Source: Roseovarius sp.
Lineage (GTDB): Bacteria; Pseudomonadota; Alphaproteobacteria; Rhodobacterales; Rhodobacteraceae
Direction: 5' to 3'
Assembly (NCBI GenBank): GCA_007125415.1
Contig: SLDH01000359.1
Coordinates: 1-14,245, forward strand
DNA length: 14,245 nt
Each line of letters opens with the position of its first letter. The stretch's first letter is position 1. Under the pieces are notes generated by a model that was given only the letters and a program-made list of their open reading frames with translations, was not told the DNA's origin and made no database searches. This document shows, piece by piece, positions 31-9,770 of this stretch. The translations under genes were made by a program, and so were the position numbers.

Positions 31-1311
31 TCAGAACCGCCGTGTGACCCCGAGGGCCAAACGCGTGTTGTCATAGGTATAAAGCGGGATCGACGAATCC
101 TGTGTTTCGTACCCCAGTTCCAGCACGGGGGTGAAACCCTGAAAATTCCAGTTTCGATTGGACAGGCGCAGGGTCGCCATCCGCCGGTCATCCTTGCGCC
201 GCGTGCCGAAGAGCGGCGACACACCATCGCGCTTCAGGCGGCTTTGCTCCAGTTCCAACCCAACCTGAAGGCCCCCCTGGAAGAGATACTGCGTTCCCAG
301 CGCAAGGCCGAAATTCGTGCCCTTGTCCGAACGGGTGGGACTGTCGCGAAACTCGGCAAAACCGCTCCCATAGACTTGAAACCGAGGGGTGATATTGTGG
401 CTGTAGCGCAGTTGCAGGCGCGTCTCGTCGGCCGTGGCGATGCGCGGATTGTCATAGTCGATCCGCTGATAGCGTGCGCTTACCAGAATGGACCCCGACG
501 TGCCCGTCAGGCGGCTGTAACGCAGGGTGATCCCGGTTGTGTCCGAGTATAGATCGCCGTCGATCCAGCGACGGGCAAAATGCACGGTTGCACCCGCTTG
601 CCGCGAACGGTCACCGAAGTTGACCAGCCCCAACTGGCCGATCACGCTGTAATCGTCAGGCGCCCTGTCGCTGTTGAAAAAGCGGCCATCGAAGGTGAGC
701 CCGATGCGCGCACGCGTGTCGGGTGCGACCATGGGCAAGAGTGCGCCACCAAAGACAAGGCGCACCCCGGTCGCTGACCTGGCACGCGCGTTCGGGTTGA
801 TGCGAAAGGGCAGGCCGGCGATCACCACCGTGTCGGCTGCCGTGCGCCGCGCGGCATTGCTTTCCGGGGTCAGCGCAATAGACAGGTAGCCCTCCCAGGC
901 CTTGCGCCGCTCCAGCCTGTCCAGACGATCATCGAGCACCGCAGCGATGCCGGGATCGGTGACGGAACTGCGCAGAAGACTGTAATGATAATGCGCGCGC
1001 TCATCCTGCTCGATTGCCATGAGCGCACCGGCCAGTTCAAGCCGGTAGCGCGCACTGCGCGGGTTGAGCGAGATCAGCTGCTCAAGATAGGTGATCGCCC
1101 GGCGCGGACGCCCCTCCTGCCCATAGGCAACCGCAAGCGCCCAGAGCTTGCGCTCCTGCTCGGCGCGGGTGGTTGGCTCATAGGCATCGAGGATCGCGCG
1201 GGCTTCGGCGGTCTGTTCTTGCCGGATCAACGCCTCGGCAAGACCGAGTGGGTTCGCAAGGGCAAGCCCGGGCCAGAGCAGCACCAGCGACAGGCACAAT
1301 ATTCGGAGCAT
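31..1311 (-). CDS. Slam-type surface lipoprotein assembly modifier (outer-membrane TPR/beta-barrel protein)
   Basis: The 426-residue protein has a signal peptide (residues 1-19, cleavage after A-L-A). A helical region of about residues 25-135 looks like TPR repeats, for example the stretch around W57 to L79 with its paired A/Y/L positions. From about residue 140 to the end it has alternating polar/aromatic strands typical of an outer-membrane barrel, and it ends R-R-F, the usual C-terminal Phe signal for BAM insertion. The barrel entry (LTPESNAARRT at 147-157, GLPF at 166-169, ARARSATG at 175-182) resembles the Slam/DUF560 family. Characterised Slam proteins of Neisseria and relatives translocate lipoproteins such as TbpB and fHbp to the outer leaflet; here that role is inferred. 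The protein is somewhat shorter than Neisseria Slam1. The gene follows two lipoprotein genes on the same strand, its probable substrates. The ATG is preceded by a weak purine-rich site. Alternative: a general DUF560 porin. Confidence 0.82.
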   Translation of the reverse strand: MLRILCLSLVLLWPGLALANPLGLAEALIRQEQTAEARAILDAYEPTTRAEQERKLWALAVAYGQEGRPRRAITYLEQLISLNPRSARYRLELAGALMAIEQDERAHYHYSLLRSSVTDPGIAAVLDDRLDRLERRKAWEGYLSIALTPESNAARRTAADTVVIAGLPFRINPNARARSATGVRLVFGGALLPMVAPDTRARIGLTFDGRFFNSDRAPDDYSVIGQLGLVNFGDRSRQAGATVHFARRWIDGDLYSDTTGITLRYSRLTGTSGSILVSARYQRIDYDNPRIATADETRLQLRYSHNITPRFQVYGSGFAEFRDSPTRSDKGTNFGLALGTQYLFQGGLQVGLELEQSRLKRDGVSPLFGTRRKDDRRMATLRLSNRNWNFQGFTPVLELGYETQDSSIPLYTYDNTRLALGVTRRF

Positions 1312-1338
1312 CCGGGACTACTCTTGCGGCAAAAGATC

Positions 1339-1366
1339 ATGGCCGGGCCACTCACCGCCCGGCCAT
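1339..1366 (-). terminator. Perfect 10-bp hairpin between lipoprotein 1 and the Slam gene
   Basis: The arms ATGGCCGGGC (1339-1348) and GCCCGGCCAT (1357-1366) are perfectly complementary around an 8-nt loop. Read on the minus strand the stem is followed by GATCTTTT, a short U tract; nothing similar follows on the plus strand. It therefore looks like a minus-strand intrinsic terminator or attenuator. It sits 43 bp after the lipoprotein stop and 28 bp before the Slam start. It could keep lipoprotein transcript levels high relative to Slam by allowing only partial read-through. Confidence 0.7.
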
Positions 1367-1408
1367 TGCAAAGAACTAGATTAAAATGTCCTTTGGCTCA
1401 ATCCCGGA

Positions 1409-2098
1409 TCATTGCGTCTCGATGTAGAACGAGCCATTCGTGATCACACCTTCAGGATTGTTCACCTGATAGCCCGGCTCTCCATAGGTGCCTCCAACGG
1501 TCCCGATCGCCGCGCGGCCCTCCGCGCCATAGAAGTTGCCACCAAGCAAGACCCTCGATTCGATCGTTTCACCATCGGCTTCAAGCTGACCGATGAGGTT
1601 GAGCATCATGCCGCCAACGGCAACCTCCTGCGATCCACCTGTCGGCAAGTCGATCGTGCTTGCCGTCCACGTGATCGCGCTGGGAATATCCGGATCGATG
1701 AGCATTTCGCCGTTTATCTGCTGAATCTCGTCCCCGCCTGGTTCGCGTCCGCGAAAATTCTTGGCACCGCCAGAAAACGGGTTGGTGGTCTGGCCGTCTG
1801 TCCAATCGATGTCGATATCCAGATCGGCAATCAGCTCAACGACCTCTCCGTCGGCGGAATCCACAGCATCTGCTCTCATTGCGCCCTGATAATTCGCCTC
1901 CAATCTGGTTGGCATGTCGCTCGTGGGCATCATGTCGTTGATCCGATCAAACTCCGCGTCGAAATCGGCAAAGGATACGGAGCCACCCCCTCCGCCGCCG
2001 CCACCTCCGCCACCACCTCCGCCGCTTGAGGTGCATCCGGAGATTGCGGTTGCTGCGGCGATTGCCAATCCGAATTTCAAAAGGCTCGAACGGTTCAT
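1409..2098 (-). CDS. Surface-type lipoprotein 1 with poly-glycine tether (TbpB/fHbp-like, putative Slam substrate)
   Basis: The 229-residue lipoprotein precursor has a basic N terminus, a hydrophobic stretch and the lipobox I-S-G-C22. Thr at +2 (no Asp) favours the outer membrane. Directly behind the acylated Cys lie S-S and then 14 consecutive glycines (residues 26-39), a flexible tether. The rest is acidic and beta-rich and ends with a G-x-F-Y-G motif (GGNFYGAEGRA) followed by a G-T-x-G-G-x-Y-G segment. This is the pattern of the C-terminal barrel in transferrin-binding-protein-like and factor-H-binding-protein-like lipoproteins. It is strongly similar over its whole length to the lipoprotein at 2398-3081, including near-identical ELIADL, DIDWT and NPF segments. 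A GGAG lies about 11 nt before the ATG. The Slam gene downstream suggests surface display. The ligand is unknown; family assignment is by pattern only. Confidence 0.8.
   Translation of the reverse strand: MNRSSLLKFGLAIAAATAISGCTSSGGGGGGGGGGGGGGSVSFADFDAEFDRINDMMPTSDMPTRLEANYQGAMRADAVDSADGEVVELIADLDIDIDWTDGQTTNPFSGGAKNFRGREPGGDEIQQINGEMLIDPDIPSAITWTASTIDLPTGGSQEVAVGGMMLNLIGQLEADGETIESRVLLGGNFYGAEGRAAIGTVGGTYGEPGYQVNNPEGVITNGSFYIETQ
1982..2023 (-). repeat. 42-bp GGN codon tract encoding 14 glycines
   Basis: Fourteen in-frame glycine codons follow the lipidation Cys of lipoprotein 1. The codons are mixed (GGC, GGA, GGT, GGG), so this is an imperfect trinucleotide tract. The paralogue has a shorter version interrupted by Glu (GGGEGGGGGGGG). 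In-frame length change would alter only the distance between the membrane anchor and the folded domain. Confidence 0.85.
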
Positions 2099-2173
2099 GT
2101 CAAATCCACTCCAGTTTCATGGGCCCAAAGACCCTCCCCGGAGGCACTATCGACAACAGCAAATCCATTGTCT

Positions 2174-2191
2174 CCCCCCTGTTCAGGGGGG
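2174..2191. repeat. GC-rich palindrome CCCCCCTGTTCAGGGGGG
   Basis: Six C (2174-2179) face six G (2186-2191), with T2180 and A2185 adding a seventh pair around the loop GTTC. No T run follows on either strand, so a simple intrinsic terminator is unlikely. It lies 76 bp upstream of the lipoprotein 1 start, in the 299-bp gap between the tandem lipoproteins. That position suits an operator or a structure in the mRNA leader. No known binding protein is assigned. Confidence 0.5.
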
Positions 2192-2301
2192 TATGAGCAG
2201 ATTGAAGGATGGAGTTCATGCCTGCAGGGTCGAAGGCCCCGTCATCAGCAAAAGTCGAACCCGATGAGAGAAGAGCAGATCGTTCACGCCCGGAATGTCA
2301 G

Positions 2302-2330
2302 TCTTAACCTGCACCGTCAAAAATCTTCAA
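2302..2330 (-). promoter_or_regulatory. Possible sigma-70-type promoter for lipoprotein 1
   Basis: On the minus strand TTGAAG (2330-2325) and TTAAGA (2307-2302) are separated by 17 bp. This is an acceptable -35/-10 pair within the gap between the two lipoprotein genes, and would give a leader of about 200 nt. The remainder of the gap (2099-2397) holds the GC-rich palindrome at 2174 and no convincing ORF. The assignment rests on hexamer match and spacing alone. Confidence 0.3.
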
Positions 2331-2397
2331 GTCCGTTGCCCAAATCTGACCGCGGTTGAATTGCTGTCCATCTACCGACGGGACAGGCCCGCGCGGC

Positions 2398-3081
2398 TCA
2401 GCGTGTCACGACAAAAAAGTCGCCGTCGATGGTCCCGAACTGGTCTTCGTCGGCAAATTCCGGCGCGCCGTAATTACCGGCTACAGTACCGGCCGCTGCT
2501 CTGCCACCATCCCCATAGAAGGTACCATCGAGAACGATCCGCGCCTCGACATCAGCAATGTCACCGCTCAACGGGATCACCAGACCACCCGAGGCGACGT
2601 CTTGCGTGCCGCCATCGGGCAGGTCTTCGGTGCTCTCGCTACGTGTGATCGAAGCTGGCCTGTCCTGATCAACCGTCAATTCCCCGTTAACGCGAAAAAC
2701 CTCGTCATCACCGACCTCTCGAATGCGGAACCCGCGAGCCGAGCCCCTGAACGGATTCGCGTCCTCGCCTTCGGTCCAGTCGATACGAATATTGAGATCG
2801 GCAATAAGTTCGCGATCATTGAAGCCTTCCCGGTTGTCAGGCATCGCGGCTTTCATCGCGCCGCGATATCTTGCATCGAGGGTTTGGGGCATGTCGGTTG
2901 TGGGCGTAGTTTCGATGACCCGATCGAGCGTGTCGTCGAAATTGGCGAAATCGATGTCACCTACTCTTACGCCCCCTCCTCCTCCGCCGCCGCCTTCACC
3001 TCCGCCTGTGGAACTGCAGGCGCCGATCGCTGCGGCCGCAACAACAGCCAGCCCAAACCTCGCACCGCTTGTCAACTTCAT
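2398..3081 (-). CDS. Surface-type lipoprotein 2 with glycine-rich tether (paralogue of lipoprotein 1)
   Basis: The 227-residue lipoprotein precursor has the lipobox I-G-A-C22, Ser at +2, and a Gly-rich tether (residues 26-37) interrupted by one Glu. The core aligns with lipoprotein 1 from FANFD onward (FADFD in the other), through PTTDMP/PTSDMP, ELIADL, IDWTEG/IDWTDG, NPF, and the GxFYG close (DGTFYGDGGRAAAGTV). The start is placed at the ATG at 3081. It has an excellent ribosome site (GGAG, 8 nt spacer), and the signal peptide begins there. A 19-residue upstream extension is open from a TTG, but it would put charged residues before the signal sequence. It is the first gene of the minus-strand cassette. 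It is likely secreted via Sec/Lol and then displayed by the Slam protein; this step is inferred from context. Ligand unknown. Confidence 0.8.
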   Translation of the reverse strand: MKLTSGARFGLAVVAAAAIGACSSTGGGEGGGGGGGGVRVGDIDFANFDDTLDRVIETTPTTDMPQTLDARYRGAMKAAMPDNREGFNDRELIADLNIRIDWTEGEDANPFRGSARGFRIREVGDDEVFRVNGELTVDQDRPASITRSESTEDLPDGGTQDVASGGLVIPLSGDIADVEARIVLDGTFYGDGGRAAAGTVAGNYGAPEFADEDQFGTIDGDFFVVTR

Positions 3082-3255: not shown

Positions 3256-3284
3256 TTCAGAAACCACTTCGTGGTATGTCTGAA
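3256..3284. promoter_or_regulatory. Nested dyad in the divergent promoter region (candidate operator)
   Basis: Outer arms TTCAGA (3256-3261) and TCTGAA (3279-3284) enclose inner arms ACCAC (3263-3267) and GTGGT (3271-3275), giving 11 paired positions over 29 bp. No T run follows on either side. It sits between the divergently transcribed lipoprotein 2 and the response regulator, 39 bp before the regulator's GTG. This is a natural place for a dimeric regulator to act on both units. An RNA hairpin in the regulator's leader is the alternative. Confidence 0.5.
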
Positions 3285-3322
3285 GTCTGTTCCAACATCG
3301 GCATTTGATTCGGACTGGCCGA

Positions 3323-3976
3323 GTGAAAGATATTCTGATCGTTGAAGATAGCGGTGACAGCCGCCTGTGGCTCCACAACATCGTGCAGGGCGCCTTTGCG
3401 GATGCGCGAGTGGACCTTGTCGCCAACATGCGGGAAGCGCGCGCTAAACTGGCGGCCAGGCACTATGATCTCGCGCTCATCGACATTCGGCTCCCCGATG
3501 GAACAGGGGTCGACATCCTGCGCATTTTGCGGGGGCGCGGCGCGCAAACGGTCTGTGTCGTGACAACGGCGATAAGCGACGACACGACGGTGGTGGCCGC
3601 CCTGGCCGCCGGCGCGGACGGCTATCTGCTCAAGGATCAGCCGGCACCGATCCTGTCCTTTCAACTCACACAGATCAGCGCGGGCATTCCCGCACTCTCC
3701 CCGGCGATCGCCCGCCGTATCATGGAGCATTTCCACCTGACCGGCCCGTCAGGCACGACCGATCAGAAGCTGACCCGCCGTGAGACCGACGTGCTGATGC
3801 TGATCGCACGTGGCCTGCGCAACACCGAAGTGGCCGAAACACTCGGTCTCGCGCCGAGCACGGTGGCGGGGTATATCAAGAGCATATACCGGAAACTGGG
3901 GATTTGCTCGCGCGCCGAGGCCGCGTGGCATGCCACACGAATGGGGCTCACTTTTGCCCCGCGCGAGCGGCGATGA
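3323..3976 (+). CDS. NarL/FixJ-family response regulator (receiver plus LuxR-type HTH)
   Basis: The 217-residue two-domain regulator has an N-terminal receiver, about residues 2-115. The acidic pair is E8-D9, the phospho-acceptor is D54 (LIDIRLPDG), the switch threonine is in VVTTA (81-82), and the conserved lysine is K104 (YLLKD). The C-terminal LuxR-type helix-turn-helix spans about 150-200 (LTRRETDVLMLIARGLRN, then TVAGYIKSIYRKLG). Phosphorylation would normally drive dimerisation and DNA binding. Start choice: the GTG at 3323 places the first beta strand (KDILIVED) immediately after the start and has a CGGA about 8 nt upstream. A TTG at 3305 would add six residues and has no ribosome site. 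No histidine kinase lies in the window, so it is an orphan here. It is divergent from the lipoprotein-Slam cassette, a possible target. Confidence 0.85.
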   Translation: MKDILIVEDSGDSRLWLHNIVQGAFADARVDLVANMREARAKLAARHYDLALIDIRLPDGTGVDILRILRGRGAQTVCVVTTAISDDTTVVAALAAGADGYLLKDQPAPILSFQLTQISAGIPALSPAIARRIMEHFHLTGPSGTTDQKLTRRETDVLMLIARGLRNTEVAETLGLAPSTVAGYIKSIYRKLGICSRAEAAWHATRMGLTFAPRERR

Positions 3977-4082: not shown

Positions 4083-5234
<1,152 letters not shown>

Positions 5235-5265
5235 CGCGCGCACCTTTTGACGAGAGGGTACGCTC

Positions 5266-6186
5266 TTGGCGAAGGACCGATCAAACAGCTCCGACTATAC
5301 AGGACCGCTCAAGCGGCTCGTGTTCGGGCTTGTGCTGATCGGCCTGCTGGGCCTGTTCCTTGTCTGGCGAATCGACAGCCCGCGGGTCGAGCAATTCCGG
5401 GCCCAGGTCGTTGATACCGTCGTCCCGAATTTCGAATGGGCGATGGCCCCTGTAAACGGGATGGTGAACCTGCTGCGCGACTATCATAGCTACCAGCGGA
5501 TTTATCAGCAGAACCAGGAATTGCGCCGCGAATTGCAACAGATGCGGGCCTGGAAGGAAGCCGCGCTGCAGCTCGAGCAGGAAAACGCGCGCCTTCTCGA
5601 TCTCAACAACGTGCAGCTCGACCCGCGCCTTACCTATGTCACCGGTGTGGTCATGACCGACAGCGGCTCGCCCTTCCGCCAGTCTGTCGTGATCAATGTC
5701 GGTGCCCGCGACGGGATCGTCGATGGCTGGGCAGCGATGGACGGGCTCGGTCTTGTGGGTCGCATTTCCGGCGTCGGGCAGCGGACAAGCCGGGTGGTGC
5801 TGCTGACCGACAGTGCAAGCCGGGTGCCGGTGATCATCCAGCCCTCCGGCCAGAAGGCACTGGTGATCGGAGACAACAGCGCCGCGCCATTGCTCGATTT
5901 CATCGAGGCACCCGACAGGTTGCGCCCCGGCGACAGGGTGCTGACCTCCGGAGATGGCGGCGTCTTCCCGCCGGGGCTGGCCATCGGGCAGGTCCTGCAG
6001 GATCGGGGTGGGCGCTTCCGTATCCGCTTGGCCGCTGACCATGAGCGCCTGGAATTTTTGCGTGTGCTGCGCGATTATGCGAACGAGCCGATCACCGATC
6101 CGGGCCGCCTGATCGCCCCGCGCGTGCTGATTCCGGAGGCCGCCGAAGAGCCCGGAACGGAGGCAGCGGAGGCCAGCAATGGCTGA
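5266..6186 (+). CDS. mreC: Rod-shape-determining protein MreC
   Basis: MreC is a bitopic inner-membrane protein whose periplasmic part activates PBP2/RodA and connects them to MreB. The 306-residue protein has a short cytoplasmic N terminus and one transmembrane helix (about residues 17-35, rich in L/G/V/F). A coiled coil rich in Q/E/L/R follows at about 65-110. The twin beta-barrel domain starts near TYVTGVVMTDS and contains DGIVDGWAAMDGLGLVGRI. The C-terminal tail is rich in E, A and P. Translation starts at TTG 5266, supported by the well-placed GAGAGGG 7 nt upstream and by the N terminus MAKDRS. Its 3' end overlaps mreD by 8 bp, indicating translational coupling. Confidence 0.96.
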   Translation: MAKDRSNSSDYTGPLKRLVFGLVLIGLLGLFLVWRIDSPRVEQFRAQVVDTVVPNFEWAMAPVNGMVNLLRDYHSYQRIYQQNQELRRELQQMRAWKEAALQLEQENARLLDLNNVQLDPRLTYVTGVVMTDSGSPFRQSVVINVGARDGIVDGWAAMDGLGLVGRISGVGQRTSRVVLLTDSASRVPVIIQPSGQKALVIGDNSAAPLLDFIEAPDRLRPGDRVLTSGDGGVFPPGLAIGQVLQDRGGRFRIRLAADHERLEFLRVLRDYANEPITDPGRLIAPRVLIPEAAEEPGTEAAEASNG

Positions 6187-6718
6187 GCGCAGGCATCCCG
6201 GCATCTGGGCGATGCGTCTGATCTATGCAGTGCTGTGTCTTGCGCTGATCTTTCTGAACCTGCTCCCACTCGACACCATGCCACGCGGATGGGCCGGCCC
6301 GGACCTGATGCTGGCGCTGACCTGCGCCTGGGTGGTCCGGCGGCCCGACTTCGTACCCCTCTTGCTGATCGCCCTGGTGTTCCTGCTGGCCGATCTGCTT
6401 TACCAGATGCCACCGGGGCTCTGGGCTGCCTTCGTCGTCATCGGCACCGAGGCGATGCGCCGCCGCGCCCCATTGCTGCGCGACCTTACCTTTCTGGCCG
6501 AATGGTTTACCGTCGCAGTGATTCTGACGGTCATCACCATCGGCAACCAGATCGTGCTTGCCGTCTTGCTGATCGACCGCCCTTCGCCGGGACTTTATCT
6601 CATGCAGCTTGTGATGACACTCGCATGCTATCCCGTTGTGGCTTATGCTTCGCAGATCGTCTTCGGCGTGCGCAAGCAGGCTCCGGGCGATGTTGAAGCC
6701 ATGGTGAACCGCAAATGA
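6179..6718 (+). CDS. mreD: Rod-shape-determining membrane protein MreD
   Basis: The 179-residue polytopic inner-membrane protein has about five hydrophobic segments (roughly residues 11-30, 43-55, 58-76, 107-135 and 138-165) and little else, matching MreD in size and layout. MreD partners MreC in the elongasome and modulates its interaction with PBP2. The sequence is poorly conserved in this family, so the call leans on its position between mreC and mrdA. The ATG lies inside the mreC end (8-bp overlap) with GGAGG 6 nt upstream. The stop overlaps the next start as ATGA. Confidence 0.93.
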   Translation: MAERRHPGIWAMRLIYAVLCLALIFLNLLPLDTMPRGWAGPDLMLALTCAWVVRRPDFVPLLLIALVFLLADLLYQMPPGLWAAFVVIGTEAMRRRAPLLRDLTFLAEWFTVAVILTVITIGNQIVLAVLLIDRPSPGLYLMQLVMTLACYPVVAYASQIVFGVRKQAPGDVEAMVNRK

Positions 6719-8634
6719 GACGCCCCGCAAAGGACAGTATCGAAAGCCAGGCCCGCATAACGCGGAGGGCTATGGTGCTGGGCGGGGCAATGGCTGCCAT
6801 GTCGGGCGTGCTGGCCCTCAGGATGCGCCACATGCAGGTGGATCAGGCCGATCAGTTTCGCCTGCTGGCCGATGAGAATCGCATCAATATCCGCCTCATT
6901 CCCCCGGTACGGGGCCGGATCTTCGACCGCAACGGGATCATCCTCGCCGAGAACACGCCAAGCTACCGCATCAATATCGTGCGAGAGGAAGCCGGGGATG
7001 TGGAGGAAGCCATCGCGCGGCTCGCGCGTCTGATCGAGTTGAACCCGGCCGAGATCGAACGGGCCCTGCGCGACCTGCGGGAATTGCGGGGCGACACTCC
7101 TGTGACCGTGGCCGACCGCGTGAGTTGGGATGATCTGAGCCGCGTGGCGGTCAACGCCCCTGCCCTGCCCGGCGTCACACCGGAAGTGGGGCTGACACGG
7201 CGCTATCCCTATCATGAGCATACGGCCCATGTGCTGGGCTATGTCGGCCCGGTGAATACCCGCGATCTGGAACGTATCGATGCACCGACCCAGCTTCTGA
7301 TGATGCCGCGCTTTCAGGTCGGCAAGATCGGGCTCGAGGCGCGCCGCGAGGAAATGTTGCGTGGGCGGGCCGGCACGAAGCGTGTCGAGGTCAACGCGGC
7401 CGGGCGAGTGATCCGCGAGCTTGACCGTCAGGAAGGCCAGGCAGGCGCCGATTTCCAGGTCACGCTCGATGCGGCATTGCAATCCTATGCACAGGTGCGG
7501 CTGAACGGGGAAAGTGCGGCAGCGGTGGTGATGGATTGCGAAACCGGTGATCTGCTGGCCTGTGTGTCGGCACCCAGTTATGACCCCAATCTCTTCGTGC
7601 GGGGCATTTCCGTCCCCGATTACAACGCCTTGCTGGAAAACAAGTATCGCCCCCTGCCGAACAAGGCGGTTCAGGGCATTTATCCGCCCGGCTCCACCTT
7701 CAAGATGATCACGGCACTTGCCGCGCTGAACGCGGGCACCTTCGACAGCGAGACCACCGTGCGCTGCAATGGCCATATGGAAGTGTCAGGCAGGCGCTTT
7801 CACTGCTGGAGGCGTTCGGGCCATGGCAACATGAACCTGCACACGGCGCTGCGCGAAAGCTGTGATGTGTATTTCTACGAACTGGCCCTCCGAACCGGGA
7901 TAGATGCCATCGCGGATATGGCAAGGCGGTTGGGTGTGGGCGTGGCCTTCGATCTGGAAATGACATCCGTTGCCCGCGGGCTGGCACCTGACCGGACATG
8001 GAAACGCGAGGTCCGCAACGAGGCATGGCGGCCCGGAGATACGGTCAACGCCTCCATCGGCCAAGGCTATGTTCTGGCATCACCGCTGCAACTGGCGGTA
8101 ATGACCGCACGTCTGGCGACCGGGCGCAACATCACGCCGCGTCTGGTGAAATCCATCAACGGCGTCGAACAGCCAACAGGGCATGGCGAGAACCTCGGCC
8201 TCAACGAAAACCACCTGCGCCACATCCGCCGGGCGATGTTCGCCGTAACAAACAACCGCCGCGGCACGGCCTTCGGAAGCCGCGTCATCGCCGAAGGCTT
8301 TGAGATTGCGGGCAAGACCGGCACCAGCCAGGTCCGTTCCAGAATCGTCGACAACGCTCTGGTCCCGTGGGAAGAACGCGACCATGCGCTCTATGTCAAT
8401 TACGCCCCCGCCGATGCGCCGCGCATCGCCGTGGCCGTGGTGGTGGAGCATGGCGGCGGCGGCTCGAGAACAGCGGCCCCCATCGCGCGCGACATCACGC
8501 TCCAGGCGCTCTATGACGGCGACCCACCGCTCAGCGCTTATCCGCCGCAGGACCGTGGCCGCATACAGACCCAGCAGGAAGAGTTGAGTCGCGCACGCAC
8601 CATCAGACCCCGGGACAGCAGCGACCGCGCATGA
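6715..8634 (+). CDS. mrdA: Penicillin-binding protein 2 (elongation-specific DD-transpeptidase)
   Basis: PBP2 cross-links new glycan strands made by RodA during lateral wall growth. The 639 residues are close to the E. coli length of 633. One N-terminal membrane helix (about residues 20-37) leads into the dimerisation/pedestal region (PPVRGRIFDRNG, about 62-73, then ENTPSYRIN). The transpeptidase motifs are all present: S327-T-F-K330 with the nucleophilic serine, S382-C-D384 (the PBP2 form of SxN), and K534-T-G-T. The C terminus, after about residue 600, is Arg/Gln-rich and disordered-looking. The ATG overlaps mreD, and the stop overlaps rodA, each by ATGA. The weak ribosome site fits coupled translation. 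Expected to bind amdinocillin, as known for the family. Confidence 0.97.
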   Translation: MRRPAKDSIESQARITRRAMVLGGAMAAMSGVLALRMRHMQVDQADQFRLLADENRINIRLIPPVRGRIFDRNGIILAENTPSYRINIVREEAGDVEEAIARLARLIELNPAEIERALRDLRELRGDTPVTVADRVSWDDLSRVAVNAPALPGVTPEVGLTRRYPYHEHTAHVLGYVGPVNTRDLERIDAPTQLLMMPRFQVGKIGLEARREEMLRGRAGTKRVEVNAAGRVIRELDRQEGQAGADFQVTLDAALQSYAQVRLNGESAAAVVMDCETGDLLACVSAPSYDPNLFVRGISVPDYNALLENKYRPLPNKAVQGIYPPGSTFKMITALAALNAGTFDSETTVRCNGHMEVSGRRFHCWRRSGHGNMNLHTALRESCDVYFYELALRTGIDAIADMARRLGVGVAFDLEMTSVARGLAPDRTWKREVRNEAWRPGDTVNASIGQGYVLASPLQLAVMTARLATGRNITPRLVKSINGVEQPTGHGENLGLNENHLRHIRRAMFAVTNNRRGTAFGSRVIAEGFEIAGKTGTSQVRSRIVDNALVPWEERDHALYVNYAPADAPRIAVAVVVEHGGGGSRTAAPIARDITLQALYDGDPPLSAYPPQDRGRIQTQQEELSRARTIRPRDSSDRA

Positions 8635-9770
8635 CCTATCTCGAGAATACCGTCAAGCACACGCCCTCGGGTCTGCGCAAGGTGCTCTATCTGAACTGGG
8701 CGCTCGTGATCCTGCTGATGTCGATTGCCGGAATCGGTTTTCTGATGCTCTATTCCGTGGCCGGAGGCTCTTTCTCGCCATGGGCGGAACCACAGGCCAA
8801 ACGCTTTGCCTTTGGCCTTCTTCTGATGTTTGGCATCGCCATGGTGCCGATCTGGTTTTGGCGCAATATTGCGGTGGTGGCGTTTCTGGGCTCGATCGTT
8901 CTTCTGGTCGCCGTGGAATTCTTCGGCGCGATCGGCATGGGGGCCAAGCGCTGGGTCGATCTGGGTTTCATACGGCTGCAACCCTCGGAACTGACCAAGG
9001 TCACTCTCGTGATGATTCTGGCCGCCTATTACGACTGGTTGCCCATGTCGCGCGTCTCGCGGCCCCTATGGGTGCTTCTGCCGGTGGGGATCATTCTTGT
9101 GCCTGTCCTGCTCGTCCTGCGCCAGCCGGATCTCGGCACGGCGCTGATGCTGCTCGCCGGTGGGGGGCTGTTGATGTTCATCGCAGGCGTGCACTGGATC
9201 TATTTTGCCGTCGTGATCCTTGCCATGGTAGCACTTGTCACGTTGGTGCTGCAAAGTCGCGGCACCGATTGGCAGCTTCTGGCCGATTACCAGTTTCGAC
9301 GGATCGACACGTTTTTCGACCCCTCGAGTGATCCGCTGGGCGCAGGCTATCACATCACCCAGTCCAAGATTGCGCTCGGCTCCGGCGGCTGGACGGGAAA
9401 GGGCTTCATGCAAGGCACCCAGTCGAGGCTCAATTTCCTGCCCGAAAAGCACACCGATTTCATCTTCACCACGCTGGCCGAGGAATTCGGTTTTTTGGGG
9501 GCAGTCTCCCTGTTGGCTCTCTACGCCCTTATCATTCTCTTCTGCATCTCCACCGCCCTCAGCACCAGGGACCGCTTTTCCTCGCTGTTCATCCTGGGCT
9601 TCGCCGCGACATTCTTTCTGTTCTTTGCCGTCAACATGGCCATGGTGATGGGGCTGGCGCCCGTGGTGGGCGTGCCCTTGCCCCTCGTGAGCTATGGCGG
9701 CTCCGCAATGCTCGTACTCATGATCGGCTTCGGTCTGGTACAGAGTGCCCATGTCCACAAACCGAGGTAA
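8631..9770 (+). CDS. rodA: SEDS-family peptidoglycan glycosyltransferase RodA
   Basis: RodA polymerises lipid II into glycan strands at the inner membrane, working as a pair with PBP2. The 379-residue protein is highly hydrophobic, with about ten membrane helices. The SEDS hallmarks include GAKRWVDLGFIRLQPSEL, RQPDLGTALML, and the catalytic-loop segment SKIALGSGGWTGKGF...GTQSRLNFLPEKHTDFIF. Within it, D276 corresponds to the essential Asp known from E. coli RodA (D262). The C-terminal GVPLPLVSYGGSA motif is also complete. The start overlaps the mrdA stop (ATGA). The next gene begins 3 bp after its TAA. Confidence 0.97.
   Translation: MTYLENTVKHTPSGLRKVLYLNWALVILLMSIAGIGFLMLYSVAGGSFSPWAEPQAKRFAFGLLLMFGIAMVPIWFWRNIAVVAFLGSIVLLVAVEFFGAIGMGAKRWVDLGFIRLQPSELTKVTLVMILAAYYDWLPMSRVSRPLWVLLPVGIILVPVLLVLRQPDLGTALMLLAGGGLLMFIAGVHWIYFAVVILAMVALVTLVLQSRGTDWQLLADYQFRRIDTFFDPSSDPLGAGYHITQSKIALGSGGWTGKGFMQGTQSRLNFLPEKHTDFIFTTLAEEFGFLGAVSLLALYALIILFCISTALSTRDRFSSLFILGFAATFFLFFAVNMAMVMGLAPVVGVPLPLVSYGGSAMLVLMIGFGLVQSAHVHKPR

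Follow-up and report, generated by a model that had tools for sequence, protein, structure and literature searches.

A probable Slam surface-display cassette of Roseovarius sp. with bare-barrel cargo and a candidate two-component operator

Does a gene for a Slam-like exporter form a self-contained surface-display unit with the two lipoprotein genes beside it, as a preliminary description of this locus proposed, or do further elements belong to it? The locus lies in a 14,245-nucleotide stretch of Roseovarius sp. DNA (contig SLDH01000359.1; hereafter the window), in which three co-directional open reading frames (ORFs) are transcribed on the minus strand in the order LP1, LP2 and slam (Table 1). 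It is probably a surface-display cassette of the type 11 (Slam) kind, with bare-barrel cargo and under two-component control through a palindromic site. Most cassettes of this kind are accompanied by a NarL-type regulator, a sensor kinase and the palindrome, so the unit is probably not a self-contained one.

The slam product is firmly assigned by profile comparison to the Slam (type 11 secretion) proteins, the family first proposed for it. It matches SlipAM (Pfam PF04575/DUF560) from end to end (positions 1–288 of 288) with an E-value of 3.4e-19 and 69.9 bits against a cut-off of 22. As also described at first, it has a signal peptide, a TPR region and a barrel, ends in phenylalanine, and lies on the same strand as the lipoprotein genes. 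The N-terminal TPR region scores 39.2 bits with TPR_19 (cut-off 25) and 32.9 bits with TPR_Slam, just under the cut-off of 35.2. A –TRxF C terminus is found in 24 of the 32 Slam family members listed. A second SlipAM match was not found in the window's genome, an assembly of 3.09 Mb in 410 contigs that is about 87% complete. The Slam proteins (PF04575) of Neisseria, Haemophilus and Xenorhabdus likewise combine a signal peptide, TPR and a SlipAM barrel with an adjoining lipoprotein gene (for the literature on Slam and cargo, available in part, see PMC8406197 and PMC5449769). The window cassette differs from them in its link to a two-component system and a palindrome, in a cargo below sequence recognition, and in having no TonB receptor nearby. 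The 18 genomes searched, several of whose contigs are short, show no TonB plug domain on the contig of the cassette at distances up to 100 kb, in agreement with the earlier statement that such a receptor is missing beside the cassette. The window contig itself ends 30 bases downstream of slam, so that the region beyond is not visible and may hold a further gene.

The placement of a candidate lipoprotein substrate beside the exporter gene, which the preliminary description read from this one locus, is strongly conserved. Searches by Slam alone gave 11 loci in named genomes, each with a lipoprotein homologue directly upstream of slam (11/11), while among loci found by the lipoprotein, the window included, a Slam of this group follows directly in 15 of 19 distinct loci. 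Taken together, 30 distinct loci were counted at a lipoprotein threshold of E < 1e-20, after removal of L074 and L076, which duplicate L042 and L039; in 26 of them the lipoprotein gene directly precedes slam. This Slam is missing from the other four, L082, L086, L090 and L092. In L086 (family member at 7608–8357) and L090 (7482–8261), the stretch fetched contains no Slam of this group, no kinase and no palindrome. Of 394 family genomes sampled, 20 have the lipoprotein (E <= 2e-20) and 24 this Slam group (E <= 1e-30); 17 have both, where 1.2 would be expected. Within the genus, strong lipoprotein matches are present in 2 of 84 genomes, plus one weak match, so the distribution of the cassette is patchy, by loss or transfer. 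The other strong genome (G433) carries kinase, regulator, lipoprotein and Slam genes in a row. Rhodalgimonas zhirmunskyi and Oceaniglobus ichthyenteri are examples of members that have a single cassette.

Both LP1 and LP2 have a signal peptide, and the last residue of their lipobox (AISGC and AIGAC, read from the sequence) is Cys22, a cysteine that is invariant across 24 aligned family members. The lipobox is followed by a glycine tether, comprising 14 consecutive residues in LP2 and GGGEGGGGGGGG in LP1, and the two proteins share 50% identity over 232 columns. Lipobox, tether and paralogy stand as first described, whereas the GxFYG-type motif (NFYGAEGRAAIGTVGG in LP1, TFYGDGGRAAAGTVAG in LP2), originally placed at the very C terminus, is internal, about 40 residues from the end. 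Neither protein has a Pfam family at E <= 1 or an NCBIfam family above cut-off. Sequence matches to TbpB_B_D or FHBP_C are absent, the best E-value being 0.04 in one of 14 family proteins scanned. A protein search recovered 12 relatives of LP2 and a search with a 24-row profile at least 33; among the matches listed, lengths are mostly about 215–250 amino acids, none has a precomputed Pfam domain, and the named ones are "hypothetical" or "uncharacterized".

The AlphaFold model of LP2 (mean confidence, pLDDT, 83.7) shows a glycine-tethered, bare barrel of eight strands, preceded only by disorder (residues 1–37) and one helix (43–54). The model has no handle or pedestal domain before the barrel, and LP2 is for that reason termed cargo-like, outside the known cargo architectures. 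Its structural matches include Slam cargo barrels (TbpB, haemophilin) but also other eight-stranded barrels; the predicted fold is thus well supported by the model but not exclusive to Slam cargo. Kinship with the TbpB and fHbp barrel families, raised at the outset, has no counterpart in sequence but is echoed in this predicted structure. Compared with the C-terminal domain of NHBA and the TbpB/haemophilin barrels, LP2 shows 11–20% identity over the cargo rows and, besides handle and pedestal, lacks a long N-terminal region.

The missing handle and pedestal, together with the TPR_Slam score just below cut-off, would also suit a SlipAM protein that has drifted to another outer-membrane job, with periplasmic lipoproteins that might be partners of the barrel instead of its cargo. 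Cargo loss or distinct functions are indeed raised for marine cluster 3 Slams in the accessible part of a 2025 survey (PMC12282271). Such a drift is nevertheless improbable in view of the end-to-end SlipAM match, the pairing in 26 of 30 loci, the likeness of the LP2 barrel to cargo barrels, though not to those alone, and the long glycine tether, which would suit surface display.

The same survey, in the part available, already reports Slam with cargo from marine Rhodobacteraceae in another locus type and for the most part does not settle which cargo marine Slams carry (PMC12282271). Its cluster 3 type 11 secretion system (T11SS) loci, from Rhodobacteraceae/Roseobacteraceae, come from bacteria related to that of the window and also encode a lipoprotein with a C-terminal barrel, so that the window cassette might be an ordinary case of them. 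This is very doubtful. The cluster 3 lipoproteins measure 282–375 amino acids in the available part of the survey, against about 225 for the bare-barrel cargo here and mostly about 215–250 among the family matches listed. In none of the 17 LP-Slam genomes does the DUF1194 gene (PF06707) of the published loci lie on the contig of the pair at a distance of up to 70 kb, although some contigs are short. It does lie next door to Slam matches in seven genomes, including second Slams of two LP-Slam genomes (G041 and G091). Judged by gene content, the LP-Slam pair is separate from the published marine DUF1194-linked loci. The survey's main text contains no occurrence of the terms "response regulator", "histidine kinase", "two-component" or "LuxR", and a two-component link, a palindrome or a pedestal-less cargo was found neither there, in the form available, nor in literature searches.

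The regulator gene is divergent from the lipoprotein and slam genes, and both its REC and LuxR HTH domains exceed the Pfam cut-offs; judged from alignment, its true start is likely GTG 3323. A kinase and/or regulator gene lies beside 23 of 26 LP-Slam pairs (a kinase beside 22), and the regulator homologues compared are 52–68% identical, apart from one 38% match in L089. HATPase_c is over cut-off in all three kinases scanned and HisKA_3 in one of the three; at E <= 10 both are present in 11/11, and membrane helices are predicted. These features are those of NarL/HisKA_3 two-component systems generally, from which the present ones differ in their linkage to Slam cassettes and in a predicted periplasmic PDZ-like segment, seen in 8 of 11 aligned kinases. 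In the window's own genome the kinase lies apart from the regulator, on contig C160 (L154:5867–7765), and has no PDZ segment; it shares 64% identity with the kinase that adjoins the Aestuariivita sp. FE80 cassette (L033). Among the 394 genomes, the kinase (E <= 1e-60) occurs in 26, of which 15 also have the lipoprotein (1.3 expected), a coincidence favoured by the kinase profile, which was built from LP-Slam loci and the own kinase. The same kinase and regulator adjoin Slam genes of a more remote group (profile E of roughly 1e-23 to 1e-25) in L108, L158 and L160, and seven kinase/regulator loci have neither a strong lipoprotein match nor this Slam. In L155 (1–7004) and L161 (8870–11971), kinase and regulator stand beside very large ORFs (at least 2334 and 1033 amino acids), with no LP-Slam pair and no palindrome; the start of the 1033-residue ORF is presumably RTX-like. 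The switch may serve other surface proteins at these two loci.

Counting of shared words in 33 upstream regions gave one strong signal, with 9-mers in up to 17 regions against a maximum of 6 after shuffling. Sixteen sites with at most one mismatch align as CCCCCTGAACAGGGGGGAGAC, in which AtA lies 23 bases past the 18-base palindrome, and all 16 are located 139–154 bases before the lipobox cysteine codon. Among 31 lipoprotein genes from 30 loci, the palindrome is present with at most one mismatch in 16, only at two mismatches in six, and not in nine. One of the 16 sites, in L089, lacks the AGAC and belongs to a locus without a kinase. The palindrome tracks the kinase and regulator, not Slam. 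Of the 36 loci that have a kinase or regulator, 23 contain it at up to one mismatch, against 2 of the 71 that have neither (L089 and L093); the Fisher value of this difference is 3.5e-12, although the loci share ancestry and were selected through matches. When two loci are added, promoter windows of lipoprotein, kinase or regulator genes hold 23 of the 31 sites, where 2.5 would be expected under uniform placement, and 21 of 38 loci have a site so placed. One further match at up to one mismatch exists in the window's own genome, and none at up to two mismatches on the contig of its kinase. In L156, a locus with kinase and regulator but no lipoprotein or Slam, four copies (2148, 3764, 5758 and 6804; up to one mismatch) occur within 5 kb and look as if they formed a small regulon. 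On this co-occurrence, the palindrome is likely the operator of the NarL-type regulator.

Six G–C pairs around a 6-base loop could equally fold as RNA, and the window copy sits between LP1 and LP2, a possible terminator position. The palindrome might then be a terminator or attenuator hairpin, or the site of another factor, with regulator and kinase as mere neighbours, as its presence in the kinase-less L089 would allow. This explanation is rather unlikely. Of the 21 loci that have a site in a promoter window, 14 carry it between divergent genes, where no terminator is needed, and the spacing of the palindrome to the lipoprotein is near-fixed, with AGAC and then a –10-like element following and no direct run of T. 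It also precedes kinase genes where no lipoprotein or Slam was found (L156, L159 and L180), and it is rare where kinase and regulator are missing.

The operator candidate does not extend to LP1: the palindrome is absent before this gene, and the window copy precedes LP2 only. In the tree, LP1, LP2 and P0001 form one clade (support 100/99) with end branches of 0.85 for LP1 and 0.11 for LP2, which marks LP1 as a lineage-specific, fast-evolving copy, its composition deviating from the rest of the alignment. A single lipoprotein is the usual cassette form, and by this phylogeny the window pair is a lineage-specific duplication.

The mechanism that we infer from the observed families, predicted fold, synteny, palindrome conservation and duplication would run as follows. 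LP1 and LP2 would cross the inner membrane by Sec, be lipidated at Cys22 and pass to the outer membrane, from where the TPR domain and barrel of Slam would carry them outward, the C-terminal eight-stranded barrel of the cargo serving as export signal. Once on the surface, each would be a small barrel tethered by glycines. The NarL-type regulator and its presumed cognate membrane kinase, encoded on another contig, would control the LP2-slam promoter through CCCCCCTGAACAGGGGGG, upstream of the –10-like element, while the duplicated LP1 may have lost the palindrome or never gained it, and would be diverging. A more elaborate version, for which the chances appear slim, is a secretion-coupled circuit: the kinase PDZ segment would read the C termini of cassette products or unassembled outer-membrane proteins and tune lipoprotein and Slam synthesis through the palindrome. 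DegS offers a parallel for such PDZ-type reading of C termini. In this circuit, export signal and functional surface would be one domain, since the cargo is a bare barrel, and in the window lineage the kinase would have lost its PDZ part and the second lipoprotein escaped control.

Table 1. Coordinates of the cassette and its putative control elements in the window.
Feature	Position	Strand	Remarks
Slam / T11SS outer-membrane protein	31..1311	-	426 amino acids; signal peptide, TPR, SlipAM barrel, C-terminal Phe; PF04575
LP2 lipoprotein, slower-evolving copy	1409..2098	-	229 amino acids; lipobox and Gly run in sequence; AlphaFold model, fold matches
LP1 lipoprotein, fast-diverging LP2 paralogue	2398..3081	-	227 amino acids; 50% identity to LP2, tree
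Palindrome CCCCCCTGAACAGGGGGG, candidate operator of LP2-slam transcript	2174..2191	-	exact core 2176-2189
Conserved AGAC directly 3' of palindrome	2170..2173	-	consensus of 16 aligned sites
GATAGT, possible -10 element	2146..2151	-	22 bases after 18-base palindrome; AtA kept in 16-site consensus; putative promoter role
NarL-type response regulator (REC + LuxR HTH)	3305..3976	+	Pfam; homologues beside most LP-Slam pairs

Between LP1 and the regulator lies a second, imperfect palindrome, TTCAGAAACCACTTCGTGGTATGTCTGAA (3256–3284), whose ACCAC...GTGGT core was not found upstream of the other lipoprotein genes examined. Downstream of the regulator is an ordinary cell-shape operon (4125–9770, plus strand) with mreB, mreC, a PBP2-type transpeptidase gene and RodA/FtsW in a row, and a small ORF without a family match in the mreD position.

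For a Slam group other than the well-studied, animal-associated ones, the cassette provides a candidate cargo, whose minimal build suits it to the question of what Slam recognises. It also offers a testable promoter, regulator and kinase for the timing of surface lipoprotein production.
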